A DNA stretch of 51,317 nucleotides from Oribacterium sp. NK2B42. Lineage in GTDB: Bacteria > Bacillota > Clostridia > Lachnospirales > Lachnospiraceae. A program made the position numbers and the translations under genes. Location: positions 1-51,317 of the forward strand of contig NZ_AUJX01000030.1 of assembly GCF_000424445.1 (NCBI RefSeq), read 5' to 3'. Positions within the stretch are counted from its first letter, which is position 1. Each line of letters opens with the position of its first letter. The notes beneath the pieces are model-generated. The model saw only the letters and a program-made list of their open reading frames with translations, had not been told where the DNA came from and did no database searches. Shown here in pieces: positions 1,386 through 47,979 of this stretch.

Positions 1386-1817
1386 TTAATTCAATTCTTC
1401 ACTTCTGACAATGGTATCACAATACATGCATCTGTAAAGCGCTTTTGTACGGTCAACGATCTTGAATACCTGGGGAAGCTCCTGCTCGATGGAGATGATG
1501 CATCTCGGGTTCTTGCACTTAAGAACGTTGGTAAGGGTTTCGGGAAGCTGAAGAGTTTTTTTGTCAACTCTCTTTCCGTCCTTGATGTAGTTTACGGTTA
1601 TGCCGGGATCGATATATCCAAGCACATCCAGGTCGATGTCCAGATCCTCAGAGATTTTCACGATATCCTTTTTGCCCATTTTACGGGAGGAACAGTTCTG
1701 TATGAGGGCCACCTGTGAATCAAGCTTGTCAAGATGAAGGTATTTGTATACAAGCATTGCCTTTCCGGCTTCGATATGGTCAAGTACTATTCCATTTTCA
1801 ATTCCATCTACTGTCAT
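1386..1817 (-). CDS. pyrI: Aspartate carbamoyltransferase regulatory chain
   Basis: 143 residues. The N-terminal allosteric nucleotide-binding domain begins with GIENGIVLDHIEAGKA. The C-terminal zinc domain carries the four structural cysteines C101, C106, C130 and C133 in the pattern CxxxxC...CxxC. In characterised class B enzymes this chain binds CTP/ATP and joins PyrB into the c6r6 holoenzyme. A GTAAGGAGGCG ribosome site precedes the ATG, which lies 11 bases after the pyrB stop. It is the last gene of the leftward pyr operon, so aspartate transcarbamylase here is probably subject to nucleotide feedback. Confidence 0.95.
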   Translation of the reverse strand: MTVDGIENGIVLDHIEAGKAMLVYKYLHLDKLDSQVALIQNCSSRKMGKKDIVKISEDLDIDLDVLGYIDPGITVNYIKDGKRVDKKTLQLPETLTNVLKCKNPRCIISIEQELPQVFKIVDRTKALYRCMYCDTIVRSEELN

Positions 1818-1828
1818 CCTGCGCCTCC

Positions 1829-2755
1829 TTACTTATCAAGACCTAAAAGGAATAAAATCAGAGCCATACGCATCTGTTTTCCGCATAAGGTCTGGTAGAA
1901 ATATTTAGCTCTTTCATCTTTGTCCACAGCCACTGAAATCTCGTTTACTCTTGGGAGCGGGTGAAGTATAGCCATGTCAGGTTTTGCGTTCTTGAGCTTT
2001 TCAGGAGTCAGAATGTATATATCTTTCAAACGGAGGTAATCCTCTTCGTTAAAGAAACGCTCCTTCTGAACTCTGGTCATGTAGAGAATATCAAGCTTGG
2101 GAATTGCCTCTTCAAGTGAGGTGGTTTCCTCGAATTCCACACCAGCTTCCTTAAGCTTATCAAGCTCATACTCCGGAATCTTAAGCTCTTCCGGTGAGAT
2201 GAGGATGTACTTGTTGTCGGGATAGCGGAGCATCGCATCTATAAGTGAATGAACTGTACGACCGAACTTGAGGTCACCGCAAAGTCCCAGGGTAATGCCG
2301 CTGAGGGAACCTCTGGTCCTCCTGATGGTAAGTACGTCTGCAAGAGTCTGGGTCGGATGGAAATGTCCACCGTCACCGGCATTAATGAATGGCACTGTGG
2401 TATGCATAGAGGCAACCACCGGCGCACCTTCCTTGGGGTGACGCATTACCATAATGTCTACATAGTTTGACATTACGGAGATTGTGTCGGCTACGGACTC
2501 GCCTTTTGCAGCGCTGGAGCTTGAGGCTCCCGCAAAGCCAAGGATCTGTCCGCCAAGAGCCAGCATGGCAGACTCAAAGCTCAGTCTGGTTCTGGTTGAG
2601 GGCTCGTAAAAGAGTGTTGCTAACTGTTTGTGGGCGCATTTGTCCTGATATATCTCCGGATTCTTCTCGATATCATCGGCAAGGTCCATGAGATGATCGA
2701 TTTCCTCAACTGTGAGGTCCAGAATGTTTATAATGCTTCTGGGGGTTGGTTGCAT
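1829..2755 (-). CDS. pyrB: Aspartate carbamoyltransferase catalytic chain
   Basis: 308 residues from the ATG at 2755, which has AGGAGAAAAATC just upstream. The frame stays open to 2920, but that extension is only the family C palindrome and is rejected. It condenses carbamoyl phosphate with aspartate, the first committed step to UMP. Signature motifs are STRTR at residues 53-57 (carbamoyl phosphate), HPTQTL near 133, and HPLPRVNEI near the C-terminus. pyrI follows directly. The 209-base gap before it, towards pyrE, is filled by a long inverted repeat that may tune the pyrE-pyrB readthrough. Confidence 0.95.
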   Translation of the reverse strand: MQPTPRSIINILDLTVEEIDHLMDLADDIEKNPEIYQDKCAHKQLATLFYEPSTRTRLSFESAMLALGGQILGFAGASSSSAAKGESVADTISVMSNYVDIMVMRHPKEGAPVVASMHTTVPFINAGDGGHFHPTQTLADVLTIRRTRGSLSGITLGLCGDLKFGRTVHSLIDAMLRYPDNKYILISPEELKIPEYELDKLKEAGVEFEETTSLEEAIPKLDILYMTRVQKERFFNEEDYLRLKDIYILTPEKLKNAKPDMAILHPLPRVNEISVAVDKDERAKYFYQTLCGKQMRMALILFLLGLDK

Positions 2756-2792
2756 GATTTTTCTCCTCCTGACATGTGTTTGTAAACCGTCC

Positions 2793-2964: not shown

Positions 2965-3600
2965 TTAATTTCTCCATGACTCATCCGAGGGGTTATCACG
3001 GAATTTTAAGAGTCTCGCTTCATCTTCTGGTTTGATGTAGTTCTCCTGAACGGCAAGCTTTACGAGGGTGTCGAGGTCGCAGAGGGAGGTGTTTTCGATG
3101 TTTGCTTCTTTGAGGCGGTCGATGCCTTTCTGCATGCCGTAGGTGAAGATGGAGATTATTCCGAGGACGTCGGCACCTGCTTCACGAAGAGGATTTACGC
3201 AGTCAAGTACTGATCCTCCGGTAGAGATGAGGTCTTCGATGACAACGACCTTCTCTCCCTTTTCGAGGCGTCCTTCGATCTGATTCTTTCGGCCGTGGTC
3301 TTTTGCGGAGCCTCTTACATAGCCCATGGGAAGTCCGAGGATGTCGGCTGCTATAGCTGCATGTGCGATACCGGCTGTGCTGGTTCCCTCGAGGGCTTCT
3401 GCCTCAGGATAGAGCTCTTTTACTTTTTCTGCGATGGCGTGCTCTATGAGTGTACGTACCTCAGGGTAACTGAGTACCAGTCTGTTGTCACAGTAGATTG
3501 GGGATTTAATGCCTGATGCCCAGGTGAATGGGTCATCCGGTTTTAAAAATACTGCTTTGATGGATAAAAGTCCCTTAGCGATTTCTTCTTTTGTAGCCAT
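2965..3600 (-). CDS. pyrE: Orotate phosphoribosyltransferase
   Basis: 211 residues from the ATG at 3600, which is preceded by GGAGAGAATATC. An upstream in-frame start at 3630 has no better ribosome site. It transfers phosphoribosyl from PRPP to orotate. The type I PRPP-binding signature reads VVVIEDLISTGGS, and the flexible catalytic loop carries KDHGRKNQIEG. ASGIKSPIYCDNR near the N-terminus is the usual orotate-binding segment. It is co-directional with pyrF upstream (140 bases away) and pyrB downstream. Confidence 0.95.
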   Translation of the reverse strand: MATKEEIAKGLLSIKAVFLKPDDPFTWASGIKSPIYCDNRLVLSYPEVRTLIEHAIAEKVKELYPEAEALEGTSTAGIAHAAIAADILGLPMGYVRGSAKDHGRKNQIEGRLEKGEKVVVIEDLISTGGSVLDCVNPLREAGADVLGIISIFTYGMQKGIDRLKEANIENTSLCDLDTLVKLAVQENYIKPEDEARLLKFRDNPSDESWRN

Positions 3601-3740
3601 GATATTCTCTCCTTTATGAACTTCTGACAATTCTCACTGTCAGATAAGTGTCTTTGATGATTTCTCTTATTTTCCGATGTCGAAGAATGATCCAACGTCA
3701 TCCTTGCGGTTACACAAACGGTCAGTTAAAAGCTCTTGCT

Positions 3741-4439
3741 TCAGCCAACGAAATCCTTCATTGCTCTCTCGTATGCTTCAACGGGATCAGCAGCTGCGGT
3801 AATGGATCTTCCAACTACGATATAATCGGAACCGATCTCCTTTGCCTTCGCGGGTGTTGTAACTCTTGACTGGTCACCTACAGCGTCTCCTGCAAATCTA
3901 ATGCCCGGAGTTACAGTCATGAAGCTGTCGCCTAAAGTTTCGTGAATGCTTCCGGCCTCGAGAGGTGAACATACAACACCATCAAGTCCTGCGGCTTTGG
4001 CATTTTCGGCATACTTTACAACCACATCCTTTATGGGCTGATCGATGAGAAGCTCGTTTGCCATAGTCTCCTGGGAGGTTGAGGTAAGCTGTGTGACAGC
4101 AATAAGAAGAGGTCTTGTGCCGTCTTCTCTGGTAAGTCCTTCAACCGCAGCCTGCATCATTTTGATGCCTCCGCTTGCGTGAACATTAGTCATGTCTACG
4201 CCAAGGTCGCGAAGTGACTTCATGCCGCCTTTTACGGTATTTGGAATATCGTGAAGCTTCAGATCCAGGAATATCTTGTGGCCTCTGTTTTTGATTTCCT
4301 TTACTATACTTGGCCCCTCTGCGTAAAAAAGCTCCATTCCGATTTTAACAAAGGGTTTTCTTCCTGTGAATTTATCAAGGAACTCATAAGTCTTTTCTGC
4401 GCTTGGAAAATCCAGCGCGATGATCACATCTTTTCCCAT
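3741..4439 (-). CDS. pyrF: Orotidine 5'-phosphate decarboxylase
   Basis: 232 residues, the length of the short bacterial family. It forms UMP from OMP. The catalytic charged array is [10 protein letters not shown], with D59, K61 and D64. [14 protein letters not shown] is the N-terminal substrate strand, and the phosphate-binding end is VTPGIRF...VGRSITAA. The ATG follows GGAGATATT. The 145-base gap before pyrD's end is AT-rich and shows no clear promoter. Confidence 0.96.
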
Positions 4440-4584: not shown

Positions 4585-5496
4585 CTACTCCACGCATCCA
4601 ATGATGTCACTTAATTTTTCTATCTTCAGTTCCTCAAGAAGCTCAGGAAGCTCCTCGATGATTTTCTGGCAGGCAAATGGATCCACCAGATTTGCGGCAC
4701 CAACTTCAACCGCACTGGCTCCGGCCATCATCATTTCAACCACATCCTTTGCGTTTGAAACACCACCCATTCCTATAACGGGAATGTTTACGGCCTTACT
4801 TACCTGGTAAACCATTCTTACTGCCACAGGGAAGATGGCCGGTCCCGAGAAGCCGCCCATCTTGTTGTGAATCACCGGCTGACGGCGTCTAATGTCTATC
4901 CTCATGCCAAGAAGTGTGTTGATAAGTGCAAGTCCGTCAGCTCCCGCATCCTCTGCCGCTTTGGCGATGTAAACGATATCCGTAACATTGGGACTAAGCT
5001 TAATGTAGACGGGCTTTTTTGCTGCCTTTTTAACTTCTCTTGTGACTTCCGCCACATTATCACTGCTGGTTCCAAAGGCCATTCCGCCGCCGTGAACATT
5101 AGGGCAGGAAACATTAACCTCAAGGATACCTACCTCAGGCACCTCGCTCATGGCCTCAGCAAGCTTTACGTATTCAGGGACGCTGAATCCGGAAATGTTG
5201 GCGATGAGGGGTTTATGAAAATGCTTCGCAAGCTCGGGGATTTCAAACTTGATGACTTCCTCCATGCCGGGGTTCTGAAGACCCACGGAATTGATCATGC
5301 CCTGATAGCACTCGGCTATACGGGGGAGCTCATTGCCATAACGCTCTTCGACTGTTGTTCCTTTGAAGGAAATGGATCCCAGTATATCAAGGTCATAAAG
5401 ATCCCAATATTCTTTTCCGAACCCGAAGGTTCCGGATGCCGGGATCACAGGGTTACTGAGTTTGATTCCGGAAAGCTCCGTCGTTAAATCTACCAT
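4585..5496 (-). CDS. pyrD: Dihydroorotate dehydrogenase, class IB catalytic subunit
   Basis: 303 residues. It is an FMN TIM-barrel enzyme oxidising dihydroorotate to orotate. The class 1 catalytic cysteine lies in EVNVSCPNVHGGG, and IKLSPNVTD and IPVIGMGGV are FMN-site segments. It is class IB (NAD-linked) because pyrK directly precedes it. The ATG overlaps the last codons of pyrK (ATGGTAG), indicating translational coupling and equal subunit production. Confidence 0.95.
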   Translation of the reverse strand: MVDLTTELSGIKLSNPVIPASGTFGFGKEYWDLYDLDILGSISFKGTTVEERYGNELPRIAECYQGMINSVGLQNPGMEEVIKFEIPELAKHFHKPLIANISGFSVPEYVKLAEAMSEVPEVGILEVNVSCPNVHGGGMAFGTSSDNVAEVTREVKKAAKKPVYIKLSPNVTDIVYIAKAAEDAGADGLALINTLLGMRIDIRRRQPVIHNKMGGFSGPAIFPVAVRMVYQVSKAVNIPVIGMGGVSNAKDVVEMMMAGASAVEVGAANLVDPFACQKIIEELPELLEELKIEKLSDIIGCVE

Positions 5497-6212
5497 GCGA
5501 TTTCCTCCATCATGAATATAGGACCGTCCTTGCAGACACGTTTAAATCCGTTCTTTGTCTTTTTGCTGCAGCCCATGCAGGCTCCGAAGCCGCAGCCCAT
5601 CCTGGTCTCGAAACTGAACTGTCCGTCCTTAACCACGTTGTAAACTGCTTTCAGCATTGGCTCAGGTCCGCAGCAAAGCGCATAGTCATGGTCTCCGATG
5701 ATGTCTGTGACGAAGCCTTTGGCGCCATAACTGCCGTCTACTGTTGCTATATTTACAGGTACGCCCAATGCCTTGAATTCGGCCTCATAGAAGACATCGG
5801 ACTTTGTGTTAAAGCCGAGAGCTACATAGGGGGTGATGCCCATCTGCTTGAGGCATTTTGCAAGAGCATACATAGGCGGAACACCGACTCCTCCTCCTGC
5901 TATAACAGGATTCTTTGGAATCTTCCGGAGGTCATATCCGTTTCCGAGACCAGTAAGGACGTTAATATAGTCTCCCGGTTCCATGTAGCTCAGGTCTTCG
6001 GTTCCCTCACCCACAACTTTGTAGATCAGAGTTAGTCTGTTCTCAGACCAGTCGCAAACCGATATAGGTCTTCTGAGAAAGCGTCCCGGTATTTTAATGT
6101 CTACAAATTGTCCGGGTCTCGTGACATCGCTTGTATCACCGTCCAATGTCATCTTAAAGATGTCAGCAGTAAGTGCTTCATTGGTCAGTATCTTGAACTC
6201 AACATCCTTCAT
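5490..6212 (-). CDS. pyrK: Dihydroorotate dehydrogenase electron-transfer subunit
   Basis: 240 residues of the ferredoxin reductase fold. The FAD contact is RRPISVCDW (48-55), the NAD-binding loop GGGVGVPPMYAL (107-118), and the [2Fe-2S] ligands are C207, C212, C215 and C227 near the C-terminus. It passes electrons from PyrD to NAD+. It is the first structural gene of the operon, with AGGAGATGTAA before its ATG. It lies about 50 bases beyond a strong terminator hairpin (6262-6309), which points to attenuation control. Confidence 0.95.
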   Translation of the reverse strand: MKDVEFKILTNEALTADIFKMTLDGDTSDVTRPGQFVDIKIPGRFLRRPISVCDWSENRLTLIYKVVGEGTEDLSYMEPGDYINVLTGLGNGYDLRKIPKNPVIAGGGVGVPPMYALAKCLKQMGITPYVALGFNTKSDVFYEAEFKALGVPVNIATVDGSYGAKGFVTDIIGDHDYALCCGPEPMLKAVYNVVKDGQFSFETRMGCGFGACMGCSKKTKNGFKRVCKDGPIFMMEEIAW

Positions 6213-6261: not shown

Positions 6262-6309
6262 AAAAAAATACCAGCCTCAAACAAATGAAATAACATTTGT
6301 CGAGTCTGG
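6262..6309 (-). terminator. Intrinsic terminator (putative attenuator) in front of pyrK
   Basis: On the minus strand CCAG and CTC followed by ACAAATG pair with CATTTGT, GAG and CTGG across one A-G mismatch and a small bulge. The stem is followed directly by TATTTTTTT. It sits between the leader ORF and pyrK, so it would end most transcripts before the operon unless prevented. The stop codon of the leader ORF (6279-6277) lies in the descending arm, so a ribosome finishing the leader would cover the ascending arm. Confidence 0.8.
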
Positions 6310-6468
6310 AATATTAAACAAACCGTTCATGTCATAAACGGCACTTCTATGAATCGTATCTGTGAATTTCTTGAAAATAAATAAAAGAACCGGAAAATCA
6401 AAAATATAAATATCAGAGACCACAGGGCCTTTTCTATCTATATTTTGGGTCTTAAGAAGAGTTGTCAT
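6277..6468 (-). CDS. Putative pyr operon leader peptide (63 residues)
   Basis: The ATG at 6468-6466 has a strong ribosome site (gggaggaatt) and begins about 30 bases after a good promoter. The peptide starts MTTLLKTQNIDRKGP and has an F/I/L-rich middle (IFDFPVLLFIF) encoded by a strikingly uridine-rich stretch: 26 T in the 39 bases 6373-6411. The frame continues through an 8-bp hairpin (centred near 6330) and ends inside the terminator stem. In the characterised enteric pyrBI leader, a pause in a U-rich tract at low UTP lets the ribosome catch up and block the terminator. The same arrangement is visible here. There is no recognisable protein domain, so the peptide itself probably has no function. 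Confidence 0.6.
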   Translation of the reverse strand: MTTLLKTQNIDRKGPVVSDIYIFDFPVLLFIFKKFTDTIHRSAVYDMNGLFNIPDSTNVISFV

Positions 6469-6503
6469 AATTCCTCCCAAAAGTGGTTTCCAAGTTCTCG
6501 GAT

Positions 6504-6532
6504 AATATAACATAAGGAATAGGGTATGGCAA
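6504..6532 (-). promoter_or_regulatory. Sigma-70-type promoter of the pyr operon
   Basis: Minus strand: -35 TTGCCA (6532-6527), a 17-base spacer, and -10 TATATT (6509-6504). Transcription would start near 6497, giving a leader of about 285 bases before pyrK. That leader includes the leader ORF and the terminator. Confidence 0.65.
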
Positions 6533-6600
6533 GGGTAATTTAGTTGGCCGTACCCGCTGGCGCTCCGCCGGTCAGGTTCGGCGTTGATAGCCTCACCTGA

Positions 6601-6667: not shown

Positions 6668-6940
6668 TCACTCATCCCAGCCCTCACGTGGCATGATGAT
6701 CATCATTTCAACAAATCTTTCTTCGGGAGTAAGGTTTACATCGTCTTTGTGTGTTACTTCCGGGAGGTCGTTGGTGTCGGCCAGCTCGAGCTGGATCCAG
6801 TCGATGGCATTGGCTCTGGCATCTGCAAGGGCTTCGTCTTCTGTGGCTCCGTCTCCGAAACACTGGTCGAGATCAAAATACTCTACGCGGTATCCTCCTT
6901 CCGGTTTTTTATATAATTTAGCCGGGTAATAAAATGTCAT
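6668..6940 (-). CDS. HicB-like antitoxin-type protein (orphan)
   Basis: 90 residues from the ATG at 6940. AGGAGG (6953-6958) lies 12 bases upstream, within the end of the araC gene. An alternative start at 6964 overlaps araC. The sequence FYYPAKLYKKPEGGYRVEYF, then DLDQCFGDGATEDEALADA, is the HicB partial RNase H-like fold. HicB antitoxins normally pair with a small HicA ribonuclease (a double-stranded-RNA-binding fold with a key histidine). No HicA frame is visible on either side. It may be a solitary HicB-like regulator or remnant. Confidence 0.7.
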   Translation of the reverse strand: MTFYYPAKLYKKPEGGYRVEYFDLDQCFGDGATEDEALADARANAIDWIQLELADTNDLPEVTHKDDVNLTPEERFVEMMIIMPREGWDE

Positions 6941-6947
6941 GGTCTGA

Positions 6948-7835
6948 TTAATCCTCCTTGCCAAACCGTTTACGGAATTTATGCGGTGTTTCTCCGGTTA
7001 CGGATCGGAATATCTTTATAAAATTACCGATATTATGGAATCCGCACTCTTCAGCAATCTCATAGACATGAGTATCGGTGTCTTTAAGAAGTCTGGCGGC
7101 CTGTTCAACACGATATCTGTTGATATAATCAAGGGGAGATACCCCTGTGACACTTCCGAAAAATCTTATAAAGTACTGTTCGTTAAGTCCCGTAAGTTCC
7201 GATAAATTTCGTATATAAAGCTTTTCTTTATAGTGTTCTCTTATGAATATGATTGAATCCTTAATGGCCTTAACCTGCTTTTCCGTATCGGTAATTTCCT
7301 TGTCTTCTATCATACCGAAAGAATAGATAAGGGCTATCACATGCAAAAGATCTGCCTTTATCATAAGCTGATCTGCCACAGAATCAAGCTCATATTTACG
7401 TACACTCACACTGTTGGTATTGCTCTTTTTTCCAAACTCACGATACCTTCTCACCATATCATTAAAGGATCTCAGTACCTGTAGGAAACCAAAATCGGAT
7501 ACGGTAATGAATTCATTGAACCTGATACTGCCCTTAAGAAGCGGATAAATAAGAGCTTCATTAACCGGGTCGCTGTCATTTTTGAAGCAAAGATCCTCAA
7601 GCTTTACACGGATTGAGTATTCAACGCCCTTTTCATCAAGAGACTCAAGCTTACGGATAACCCCTGAATTCACGATACAGAAACACTCATCAGTGATGTC
7701 ATACTCCTTCAGGTTGAGCATAAGCTTATAATGTCCGTTTTTAAAATATATGATTTCCGGTTCGTCATGCCAGTCCAGACCAACATCAAGCTTTTCTTCC
7801 TGACTGTTTATGGACTCATAAAGTAATGCTGCCAT
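6948..7835 (-). CDS. AraC-family transcriptional regulator
   Basis: 295 residues. An N-terminal cupin-like sensing domain (about 1-110, starting MAALLYESINSQEEKLDVG) is followed by a linker. The C-terminal double helix-turn-helix spans roughly 195-290: IRNLSELTGLNEQYFIRFF forms the first part and EIAEECGFHNIGNFIKIFRS the second, with the usual GETPHKFRKRF ending. The ATG is preceded by GAGGATATA. The ligand is unknown. It is transcribed away from coaX and ends over the hicB ribosome site, so the two may be cotranscribed. Confidence 0.9.
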   Translation of the reverse strand: MAALLYESINSQEEKLDVGLDWHDEPEIIYFKNGHYKLMLNLKEYDITDECFCIVNSGVIRKLESLDEKGVEYSIRVKLEDLCFKNDSDPVNEALIYPLLKGSIRFNEFITVSDFGFLQVLRSFNDMVRRYREFGKKSNTNSVSVRKYELDSVADQLMIKADLLHVIALIYSFGMIEDKEITDTEKQVKAIKDSIIFIREHYKEKLYIRNLSELTGLNEQYFIRFFGSVTGVSPLDYINRYRVEQAARLLKDTDTHVYEIAEECGFHNIGNFIKIFRSVTGETPHKFRKRFGKED

Positions 7836-46485: not shown

Positions 46486-47979
46486 TTAGCCAGCTTGCTT
46501 GCGTTGTTTTTTTAATGCTTTCTGGATCATAGGTCCAAACAAGCTGTAAACAGTTATAAGAATAAAGATAAGTGAAATAGGTCTTGTGAAGAAAAGTGAA
46601 TAGTCTCCCTTTCCGTATGAAACACCCATTCTGAAGTAGCTCTCGATCTTTCCGCCCAGGATAAATGCAAGCATAAGCGGAGTCATGGGAAGTCCAAAGT
46701 AATCCATCACTATACCAACCAGTCCGAAGAAAAGTACCAGATAAACCGAGAACATGGAGGTTGTTGATGAAAATGCTCCCATGAATGCGATCATAAGGAT
46801 AGCACTGTAAAGGTAGTGATATGGTGCCTTAAGGAGCAGAGGGAAATATTTCTTTGTAAGGAGCTCAGTTACAAAAATAAGGATTGCAGAAACAAGTACT
46901 GTTGCGAAGATAAGATCTGCAAGTACAGGGTTTGTTCTTATGAACATAGGTCCCGGCTGAAGTCCATGGATGGTCATAGCAGACATGAGAAGTACGGTTG
47001 TAGCATCTCCCGGGATACCAAGAGATATCATAGGAATGATAGCACCGCCGACGCCGGCATTGTTTGATACCTCTGTGGCCCATACACCCTCATCCACACC
47101 AGTTCCGAAAAGCTCCGGATGCTTTGACATTTTCTTAGCCTGACCGTATGCAAGGATGTTAGAAATACCTGAACCCATGCCCGGAAGGAATCCGATCCAT
47201 AGACCGATGAACAGTGAAACGACAATTACCTTAATGTTATCTGTAAGGTCCTTAAGTGTAAGTCCGATTCCGCCGAGAGCGCCCTCGTCTACCTTGGGCA
47301 TCTCCTGGTTGCCCTTAGCATAGCTTGTAGCCACCTGCTGAAGGGCGAAGGTTCCCATGAGAAGGCAGACAACATTGATACCACCGAAAAGGTTATAGTT
47401 GTTAAATGTAAATCTCATCTGATTTGTTACGGAATCAGTTCCGACGCAGGCAAGCCAGAGACCAAGGAAAGCTGCTGTCATTCCCTTGAAAACAGAACCG
47501 TTTGAAAGTCCAACAACCATGGTTATGGCCATGAGGCATAGGCTGAAATACTCCCATGGTCCCAGTTTTAATGCTATCTCCGCAATATATGTGGAGCAAA
47601 GTGTAGCAACGATGATGGAAATGAAAGTACCGATGAAGGAACCTGTGATACCGATGGAAAGTGCCTTTGCAGCCTTTCCTTTTTTAGTCATGGGATAACC
47701 GTCGTAACAGGTTGCGATGGATGCAGCCGAACCGGGAATTCCAACTAGAACCGCTGCGATAAAGGAACCCGAAACACCACCGACATACATACCGACAAGC
47801 ATTGAGAAGCTGAGCTCAGTGCTCATTGCAAATGTCAAAGGAAGTATAAGTGTGATACCCAGTCCTCCGGAAAGTCCGGGGATGGCACCGAGAACTGCAC
47901 CCACCAGCGTACATAAGTACATCATTATGAAATTCATGGGCTGAAGCAGTGTCAAAAGCGCTGTCATATAATCTGCCAT
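46486..47979 (-). CDS. tctA: Tripartite tricarboxylate transporter large membrane subunit
   Basis: 497 residues, about 12 membrane helices. The family signature appears in GAIPGLSGGLGITLILPLTF and again in the second half as IGFLPGMGSGISN, the two re-entrant repeats. SLGIPGDATTVLLMSAM is also typical. It drives uptake of a carboxylate using ion flux with TctB and the binding protein TctC. AGGAGAAATAAA precedes the ATG. It is third in the tctC-tctB-tctA order. Confidence 0.95.
   Translation of the reverse strand: MADYMTALLTLLQPMNFIMMYLCTLVGAVLGAIPGLSGGLGITLILPLTFAMSTELSFSMLVGMYVGGVSGSFIAAVLVGIPGSAASIATCYDGYPMTKKGKAAKALSIGITGSFIGTFISIIVATLCSTYIAEIALKLGPWEYFSLCLMAITMVVGLSNGSVFKGMTAAFLGLWLACVGTDSVTNQMRFTFNNYNLFGGINVVCLLMGTFALQQVATSYAKGNQEMPKVDEGALGGIGLTLKDLTDNIKVIVVSLFIGLWIGFLPGMGSGISNILAYGQAKKMSKHPELFGTGVDEGVWATEVSNNAGVGGAIIPMISLGIPGDATTVLLMSAMTIHGLQPGPMFIRTNPVLADLIFATVLVSAILIFVTELLTKKYFPLLLKAPYHYLYSAILMIAFMGAFSSTTSMFSVYLVLFFGLVGIVMDYFGLPMTPLMLAFILGGKIESYFRMGVSYGKGDYSLFFTRPISLIFILITVYSLFGPMIQKALKKQRKQAG

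Follow-up and report, generated by a model that had tools for sequence, protein, structure and literature searches.

The pyrimidine operon of Oribacterium sp. NK2B42 is preceded, directly upstream of pyrK, by a short, U-rich open reading frame (ORF) that stops inside an intrinsic terminator, and this raises the question of what the ORF does and where it came from. In Bacillota the textbook pyr regulator is PyrR, and translation-coupled UTP attenuation is known from enteric bacteria. We analysed the locus within the whole 51,317-nucleotide stretch of DNA under study (the window) and in the genomes of near and distant relatives.

Architecture of the pyrK leader

The features of the locus, in window coordinates, are as follows.
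6504..6532, minus strand: extended -10 promoter, TTGCCA-17-TATATT (10 of 12 matches; TG precedes the second hexamer)
6485..6500, minus strand: transcript 5′ end, block CGAGAACTTGGAAACC, with predicted pairing to 6397-6384 in the U-rich tract
6472..6478, minus strand: ribosome binding site GGGAGGA (GGAGGA kept in all eight remnant leaders described below)
6277..6468, minus strand: leader ORF of 63 codons, pyrC 5′-end remnant (ATG at 6468, stop TGA)
6373..6411, minus strand: U-rich tract within the leader ORF (26 T in 39)
6322..6342, minus strand: small hairpin, then U-rich TTGTTTA (predicted 9 bp, −8.8 kcal/mol; 1 of 200 shuffles as stable)
6262..6309, minus strand: intrinsic terminator, hairpin 6309-6271, then TA and seven T to 6262
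5490..6212, minus strand: pyrK, first structural gene (clear match, below the NCBIfam cut-off; nearest 216.6 versus 219 bits)
4585..5496, minus strand: pyrD (above the NCBIfam cut-off)
3741..4439, minus strand: pyrF (above the NCBIfam cut-off)
2965..3630, minus strand: pyrE, longest frame (above the NCBIfam cut-off)
1829..2758, minus strand: pyrB, ATG start assumed (above the NCBIfam cut-off)
1386..1817, minus strand: pyrI (above the NCBIfam cut-off)

A first-pass annotation, made from the letters of the window, had listed the promoter, the ribosome site, the 63-codon ORF, the T-rich stretch at 6373-6411 and the terminator with the ORF stop in its descending arm, and all of these were confirmed; the small hairpin that it had given as 8 bp is present, but with a predicted 9 bp. 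By NCBIfam matches the gene order downstream of the leader is pyrKDFEBI. The terminator hairpin has a predicted energy of −15.9 kcal/mol, with none of 200 shuffles as stable, and the stop codon of the leader ORF (6279-6277) lies inside its descending arm. The fold of the 247-nt leader as a whole was better than that of shuffled sequences (z = −3.0; 1 of 200 as good). Translation of the ORF is indicated by its start codon, ribosome site and open frame. The T fraction is 0.39 in the leader versus 0.23 in pyrK, and 39-nt windows with at least 26 T occur on the minus strand at 4 of 51,279 positions, in a single cluster at the leader, and on the other strand at 2 of 51,279, in a single cluster near 47978. 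The 1.4 kb scanned held five promoter-like sites where 2.9 would be expected by chance, so the promoter match alone is little proof; CTTGC and TATATTAT of the promoter are kept in all eight remnant leaders. The small-hairpin pattern is present, with at most three mismatches, in 11 of 17 genomes of the genus, and is possibly a pause hairpin.

The leader ORF as the front end of pyrC

The window ORF shared 46% identity over 61 aa with the N-terminus of the intact PyrC of a genus relative, G008 (BLASTP, single-comparison E value 1e-8), and its homologous N-terminus occupies the same place as the intact pyrC of genus relatives, with the same blocks and frame. The catalytic body of dihydroorotase is absent from it, the ORF ending at codon 63, and no Pfam or NCBIfam family matched the ORF up to an E value of 1. 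Among the 17 genomes of the genus, all of which have pyrK, a remnant leader precedes this gene in eight (G000, G004, G005, G006, G007, G010, G012 and G013) and an intact pyrC stands at the same place in another eight (G001, G002, G003, G008, G009, G011, G015 and G016); in the seventeenth, G014, the contig begins at pyrK, and the genome therefore enters neither count. The eight remnants form one clade (support 99/97) whose nearest row, G011, has an intact pyrC, so that one loss of the pyrC body suffices. The window's own genome has one dihydroorotase gene elsewhere above the TIGR00857 cut-off, and this other pyrC is of another type, with neither the hairpin nor clear U-enrichment.

These comparisons give good support to the view that the leader ORF is what remained of pyrC (dihydroorotase), namely its first ~60 codons, once the body of the gene had gone. 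In the history we propose, the window's clade would have lost the body of pyrC once but kept its promoter, ribosome site, U-rich codons and terminator, and the remaining front end would have become the leader gene for pyrKDFEBI, with the dihydroorotase encoded elsewhere supplying the enzyme. Because the ORF is homologous to pyrC, its common descent with enteric pyrL is unlikely. The first-pass annotation had regarded the leader as independently evolved; as worded this is not supported, because it overlooks a truncated pyrC 5′ end whose attenuator-like element is already found in intact pyrC genes, often alongside PyrR.

A terminator-like hairpin within the signature codons of intact pyrC

All eight intact pyrC genes of the genus carry a matching hairpin and U-run in their own 5′ coding part. 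The in-gene hairpin sits at the signature PGFxDVHVHLREPGFSYKE, where the codons for PGFxDVHVHLREPGF read CCGGG...CCCGG and then TTTT, forming a terminator-like hairpin followed by a U-run. The residues of the PyrC signature are involved in metal binding and catalysis. When the 16 genus sequences (eight remnants and eight intact genes, 14 of them distinct) were aligned, 95.4% of cells were paired, and sliding the partner by 1 to 3 columns left at most 45.8% paired. Cells changed on both sides numbered 13 versus 4.0 in shuffled alignments (0 of 500 as high), and pairs changed on both sides numbered five versus 2.0 (equalled in 4 of 500). Pair types, at 11, showed no excess over the shuffles (10.5).

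The search was widened in three samples. The first, of relatives, yielded 74 motif copies, in which L064 repeats L020; one carrier of the in-gene element here is L124, from the cultured Anaerotignum lactatifermentans DSM 14214. In the class sample, 244 of 291 genomes had a pyrC match, and the best 90 ranked pyrC places were used; the ranking was by likeness to the element-type protein, so that this sample leans to element-type genes. Three of the 90 lacked the motif (L247, L267 and L276), leaving 44 element-type and 43 other genes. From the phylum sample the best 30 loci were taken, of which 29 were scored (none from L175), and one was element-type: L158, whose genome, G366, belongs to a different class from the window. 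The second pyrC type is L077. The peptide pattern that defines element-type was picked once the data had been seen, which in part predetermines the contrast with other-type genes but does not affect the synonymous and wobble tests. The label Clostridia for the carriers rests on named relatives in the protein tree.

Across many families, 115 distinct pyrC genes carry the in-gene terminator, which is rare in other-type pyrC. Compared with synonymous recodings, the hairpin was stronger than the mean null in all 115 element-type genes and the tail was U-richer in 111. Against null sequences built from the codon usage of the gene concerned, the joint p was ≤0.05 in 111 of 116 element-type versus 8 of 73 other-type genes; among those for which the joint test fails are L198, L207, L223 and L228. 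The proline wobble bases form a Watson-Crick pair in 109 of 116 element-type genes (seven lack it), as compared with 76.6 ± 3.4 after shuffling (maximum 89 in 5000), a shuffle that ignores relatedness; in other-type pyrC the same bases are Watson-Crick in 23 of 73, versus 18.7 ± 3.6 shuffled. In a quick protein tree of 116 rows, those with a G-C wobble pair fall into five separate groups among C-G rows, with seven changes of the G-C label, six of them forced by starred branches, and fewer full swaps than this since some of the changes are losses to mismatched states. Synonymous choice is also marked in the codons after the hairpin, where TTT encodes Phe in 114 of 114 genes, as against 61% in the remainder of these genes, TCT encodes Ser in 62 of 93 (12% in the remainder) and TAT encodes Tyr in 105 of 112 (58% in the remainder).

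U-rich codons and promoter-proximal position

The codons that lead up to the hairpin are rich in T. At 69 loci, 67 of them element-type and two not, with start codons that were inferred by script and are in some cases doubtful, the mean T fraction before the hairpin was 0.34 (0.39 in the last 20 codons) versus 0.21 in the rest of the gene. A profile in blocks of five codons climbed to 0.42 and then 0.53 T in the two blocks before the hairpin, the second of which had T at 82% of pyrimidine third positions, and stood at 0.13-0.28 from codon 20 to codon 119 after the motif start. In the controls, the first part of pyrK had 0.26 T versus 0.235 in the rest (52 loci, p = 9e-6), and other-type pyrC had 0.25 T before the motif versus 0.23 (43 genes, p = 0.003). 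A small general 5′ T effect therefore exists, but without the peak seen before the element-type hairpin.

Start codons could be inferred in 98 of 115 element-type and 44 of 45 other-type genes. Of the 98, 78 had a promoter-like site (at least 10 of 12 matches) no more than 180 nt from the start (11 after shuffling), as against 3 of the 44 (1 after shuffling). The hairpin begins at a median of 48.5 codons from the start, the 10th to 90th percentiles being 36 to 56 codons (~108 to 168 nt). Comparison of these genes thus shows, at the level of sequence, that the hairpin, the U-run and the U-rich codons are under selection and that the element is promoter-proximal; the hairpin would be expected to terminate transcription in vivo.

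What the remnant leaders keep

The first-pass annotation had asked whether in relatives the ORF, U-rich tract and terminator are kept while the peptide drifts. Besides the selection on tract and terminator just described, this is supported in the remnants, all eight ORFs being open into the terminator while most of the peptide changes. Six of the eight stop inside it. In the two exceptions, the ORF of G006 has 72 codons and that of G007 (L011) has 79, reading through the terminator to end exactly at the pyrK start codon; this overlap might couple translation of pyrK to that of the leader, in a genome that is 73% complete and where a sequence error is possible. For six of the eight remnants dN/dS was compared (15 pairs), and it ranged from 0.29 to 1.27 over alignment columns 1-43, which drift. 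Columns 44-54, holding the small hairpin and TTGTTTA, were unchanged in five of six remnants compared, synonymous sites included, and this lack of synonymous change makes it probable that selection acts on the nucleic acid, the segment perhaps serving in pausing. G006, left out of the dN/dS count, has two base changes in these columns, both altering the peptide.

A possible helix at the transcript 5′ end

GAACTTG at the transcript 5′ end is kept in all eight remnants. Over 14 genus leaders, comprising remnants and intact genes, pairing of the 5′ end with the leader's own U-rich tract averaged −12.0 kcal/mol versus −10.5 when permuted, with 14 of 20,000 permutations as good, the region having been chosen after looking and relatedness not being removed. 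Against shuffled 5′ blocks, single leaders ranged from 2 to 59 of 200. The pairing of the 5′ end with 6397-6384 also appears in the predicted fold of the 247-nt leader. These predictions suggest a second helix, between the transcript 5′ end and the U-rich tract. Pause hairpins hold polymerase in other leaders, and by analogy this helix could hold polymerase in the U-rich tract until the ribosome opens it; it could also be a binding site or a riboswitch-like piece. We know of no counterpart of it in the pyrBI attenuator.

Pairing of the ascending arm of the terminator with the 5′ end was considered as a conserved antiterminator and is not proposed. Its maximum probability was at least 0.5 in three of eight remnants, the window included, and 0.00 in the other five, and shuffled 5′ ends equalled these three in 28 (the window), 36 and 4 of 60. 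Four of seven intact genes scanned also reached 0.5, making seven of 15 leaders, among which the start of G006 was mis-set and G016 lacked a -10. A classical antiterminator may nonetheless act in some of the leaders.

PyrR and known RNA families

The first-pass annotation had recognised no PyrR-type anti-antiterminator sequence, and family searches of the window's own genome (99% complete) found no PyrR gene at the cut-off. The PyrR-related matches there were a uracil phosphoribosyltransferase and a weak match that appears, by eye, to be hpt beside tilS. PyrR was above the cut-off in 0 of 17 genomes of the genus, four of which are only 72-87% complete. The wider samples had PyrR at the cut-off in 12 of 299 family genomes (the other 287 having none above it), 163 of 291 class genomes and 222 of 249 phylum genomes. 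In the class sample PyrR is present in the genomes of 18 of 44 element-type genes, so that the in-gene element is no mere substitute for PyrR, and both controls can coexist.

No Rfam family reached its gathering score within the window, and the PyrR site (RF00515) did not reach it in L005-L012, L054, L055, L059 or L061-L065; the PyrR negative is weak, because the model missed sites in an 11-locus scan that included genomes with PyrR. Scans of 18 and 11 loci gave only Clostridiales-1, near the pyr operon in L055 (2017-2203) and L074 (2241-2398), and in another scan, also of 11 loci, the matches were PyrR in L129 and the ZTP riboswitch in L079 (10797-10882). In L129 the PyrR site (4734-4844) lies directly before a pyrC whose in-gene hairpin is 12 codons from the inferred start, and PyrR may act on the in-gene terminator there. 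Read by eye, 11 other loci of the family showed no obvious leader before pyrC, pyrF or a nearby start. L032 (G183), which has no PyrR match, carries upstream of pyrK, as read by eye, a different short ORF that is U-rich near its end and stops in a terminator-like hairpin; this may be a further leader, distinct from the first, that works along the same lines.

A proposed mechanism and its alternatives

We propose that the leader is a transcription attenuator derived from the pyrC 5′ end which senses UTP by the logic of pyrBI, a reading to which we give a probability of about two in three. In that logic, as described in PMC5021804 and PMC4824070, the UTP-dependent speed of polymerase sets its gap to the first ribosome and so decides whether the hairpin forms, and in E. 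coli the pyrBI terminator is described as lying inside a 135-bp leader gene (PMC4824070). In relatives with an intact pyrC at the head of the operon, U-richness extends over the first ~50 codons, and the signature codons would also encode the intrinsic terminator. With plentiful UTP, polymerase would cross the U-rich codons fast and leave the first ribosome behind; the hairpin would then form and cut the transcript off within pyrC. With scarce UTP, polymerase would dwell in the U-rich codons, perhaps held there in part by the helix of the 5′ end with the tract, and the ribosome would close up and cover the ascending arm, allowing readthrough. UTP would then be the signal and the leading ribosome the antiterminator. 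For many Clostridia we regard it as probable that pyrC contains such an attenuator in its coding sequence, with the signature codons as terminator and the U-rich first codons as UTP sensor, and that this front end outlived the gene body in the window's clade; the nascent N-terminus of the enzyme itself would be the leader peptide.

Whether a ribosome can catch up is made uncertain by runaway transcription, which is reported, in PMC7858274 and PMC13323073, for B. subtilis and for Gram-positive and other bacteria; with such transcription, termination would be expected by default and slowed polymerase would be exceptional. PMC13323073 also describes a purine bias, in view of which the pyrimidine-rich start of pyrC is unusual. 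The conserved 5′ block and its suggested helix lie outside the pyrBI model and count against UTP coupling. They speak for an attenuator run not by such coupling but by a trans-acting factor or ligand, such as an RNA-binding protein, a small molecule at the 5′ helix or Rho at the pyrimidine-rich start, to which the arm pairing predicted in some leaders, the PyrR genes in the genomes of 18 of 44 element-type genes and the PyrR site of L129 also lend weight; Rho is reported to prefer pyrimidine-rich RNA (PMC13323073). We nevertheless consider such an attenuator unlikely, if worth keeping in mind: PyrR is above the cut-off in no genome of the genus, the window and the genus leaders scanned match no Rfam family at gathering score except Clostridiales-1 in L055, the arm pairing is not common to all leaders, and the terminator, having its own U-run, needs no Rho. 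Moreover, a pure RNA-ligand switch would give no reason why all eight ORFs run open into the terminator while their peptide drifts.

The same drift bears on the idea that the window leader is decaying pyrC debris whose regulation is lost, its terminator being a constitutive brake or inactive. The gene is clearly truncated, peptide columns 1-43 evolve fast and two of eight ORFs no longer stop within the terminator, as decay would have it, yet none of the eight genomes of the clade has lost the promoter, the ribosome site, the open frame or the terminator, the stem changes are compensatory and the leader remains T-rich relative to pyrK. Columns 44-54, too, are unchanged in five of six remnants while columns 1-43 differ strongly in most pairs, and decay is an improbable account. 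Still harder to sustain, and in our judgement very improbable, is that the hairpin and U-run of pyrC are a by-product of protein or codon constraint, or serve translation or mRNA stability. The ancient catalytic signature PGF...REPGF is indeed palindrome-friendly in its codons (CCN GGN ... CCN GGN), but the element-type genes beat the synonymous nulls where other-type genes mostly do not, the U-run is kept by synonymous choice, with TTT invariant for Phe, and the element tracks promoter-proximal position.

Relation to known attenuators

Attenuation by UTP through pyrC codons, as favoured here, has its closest likeness in pyrBI (pyrL) of E. coli and Salmonella, which also has a pyrimidine operon, a leader ORF with the intrinsic terminator inside it and a peptide mostly free to drift, here over columns 1-43. 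In enteric pyrBI, too, a U-rich stretch precedes the terminator. The present element differs in belonging to another phylum, in that the ORF is pyrC itself or its remnant, with the terminator in signature codons, and in that the first controlled gene is pyrC or pyrK; it is known from sequence, and its response to UTP is the presumed part. In E. coli rph-pyrE, as here, a real enzyme gene is the translated region coupled to a UTP-sensitive terminator. There the terminator lies beyond the end of rph, whereas here its place is in the first quarter of pyrC, and a terminated transcript would break off inside the gene. The PyrR attenuators of Bacillota (RF00515) likewise place a terminator near the 5′ end of a pyr operon, and L129 has both; unlike them, the window's genus has no PyrR gene at the cut-off and the leaders scanned have no PyrR match. 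Amino-acid leader-peptide attenuators such as those of his, reported in bacilli (PMC2965389), share a small translated ORF before a terminator. Amino-acid attenuation was rejected for the window, since the leader peptide has no run of a single control codon, and the signal would instead be a nucleotide.

Searches of the open-licence literature listed no title or abstract on a pyr attenuator inside pyrC or on the leader of the window, which is weak evidence of novelty as most subscription papers lie outside it. What would be new is a terminator written in the codons of an enzyme and a leader gene born by truncation. In many Clostridia one stretch of DNA appears to be under protein and RNA selection at once; if this is true, the remnant illustrates how an enzyme gene can give rise to a leader peptide, and recoding or moving such a pyrC would remove the control element.

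Sequences upstream of the leader

Directly upstream of the leader promoter, at 6540-6600 of the window (minus strand), lies a GC-rich palindromic repeat of the type GACCGGCGGAGCGCCAGCGGGTACGGCC, which is found also in L006 and L011 and as a variant in L007, and is possibly a REP-like element. Farther upstream are a 98-aa ORF (6668-6964, minus strand), which has no NCBIfam match at 1e-10, and an AraC-type regulator (6948-7835, minus strand), whose matches are below the cut-offs. ORFs similar to these two also lie upstream of intact pyrC in genus relatives.
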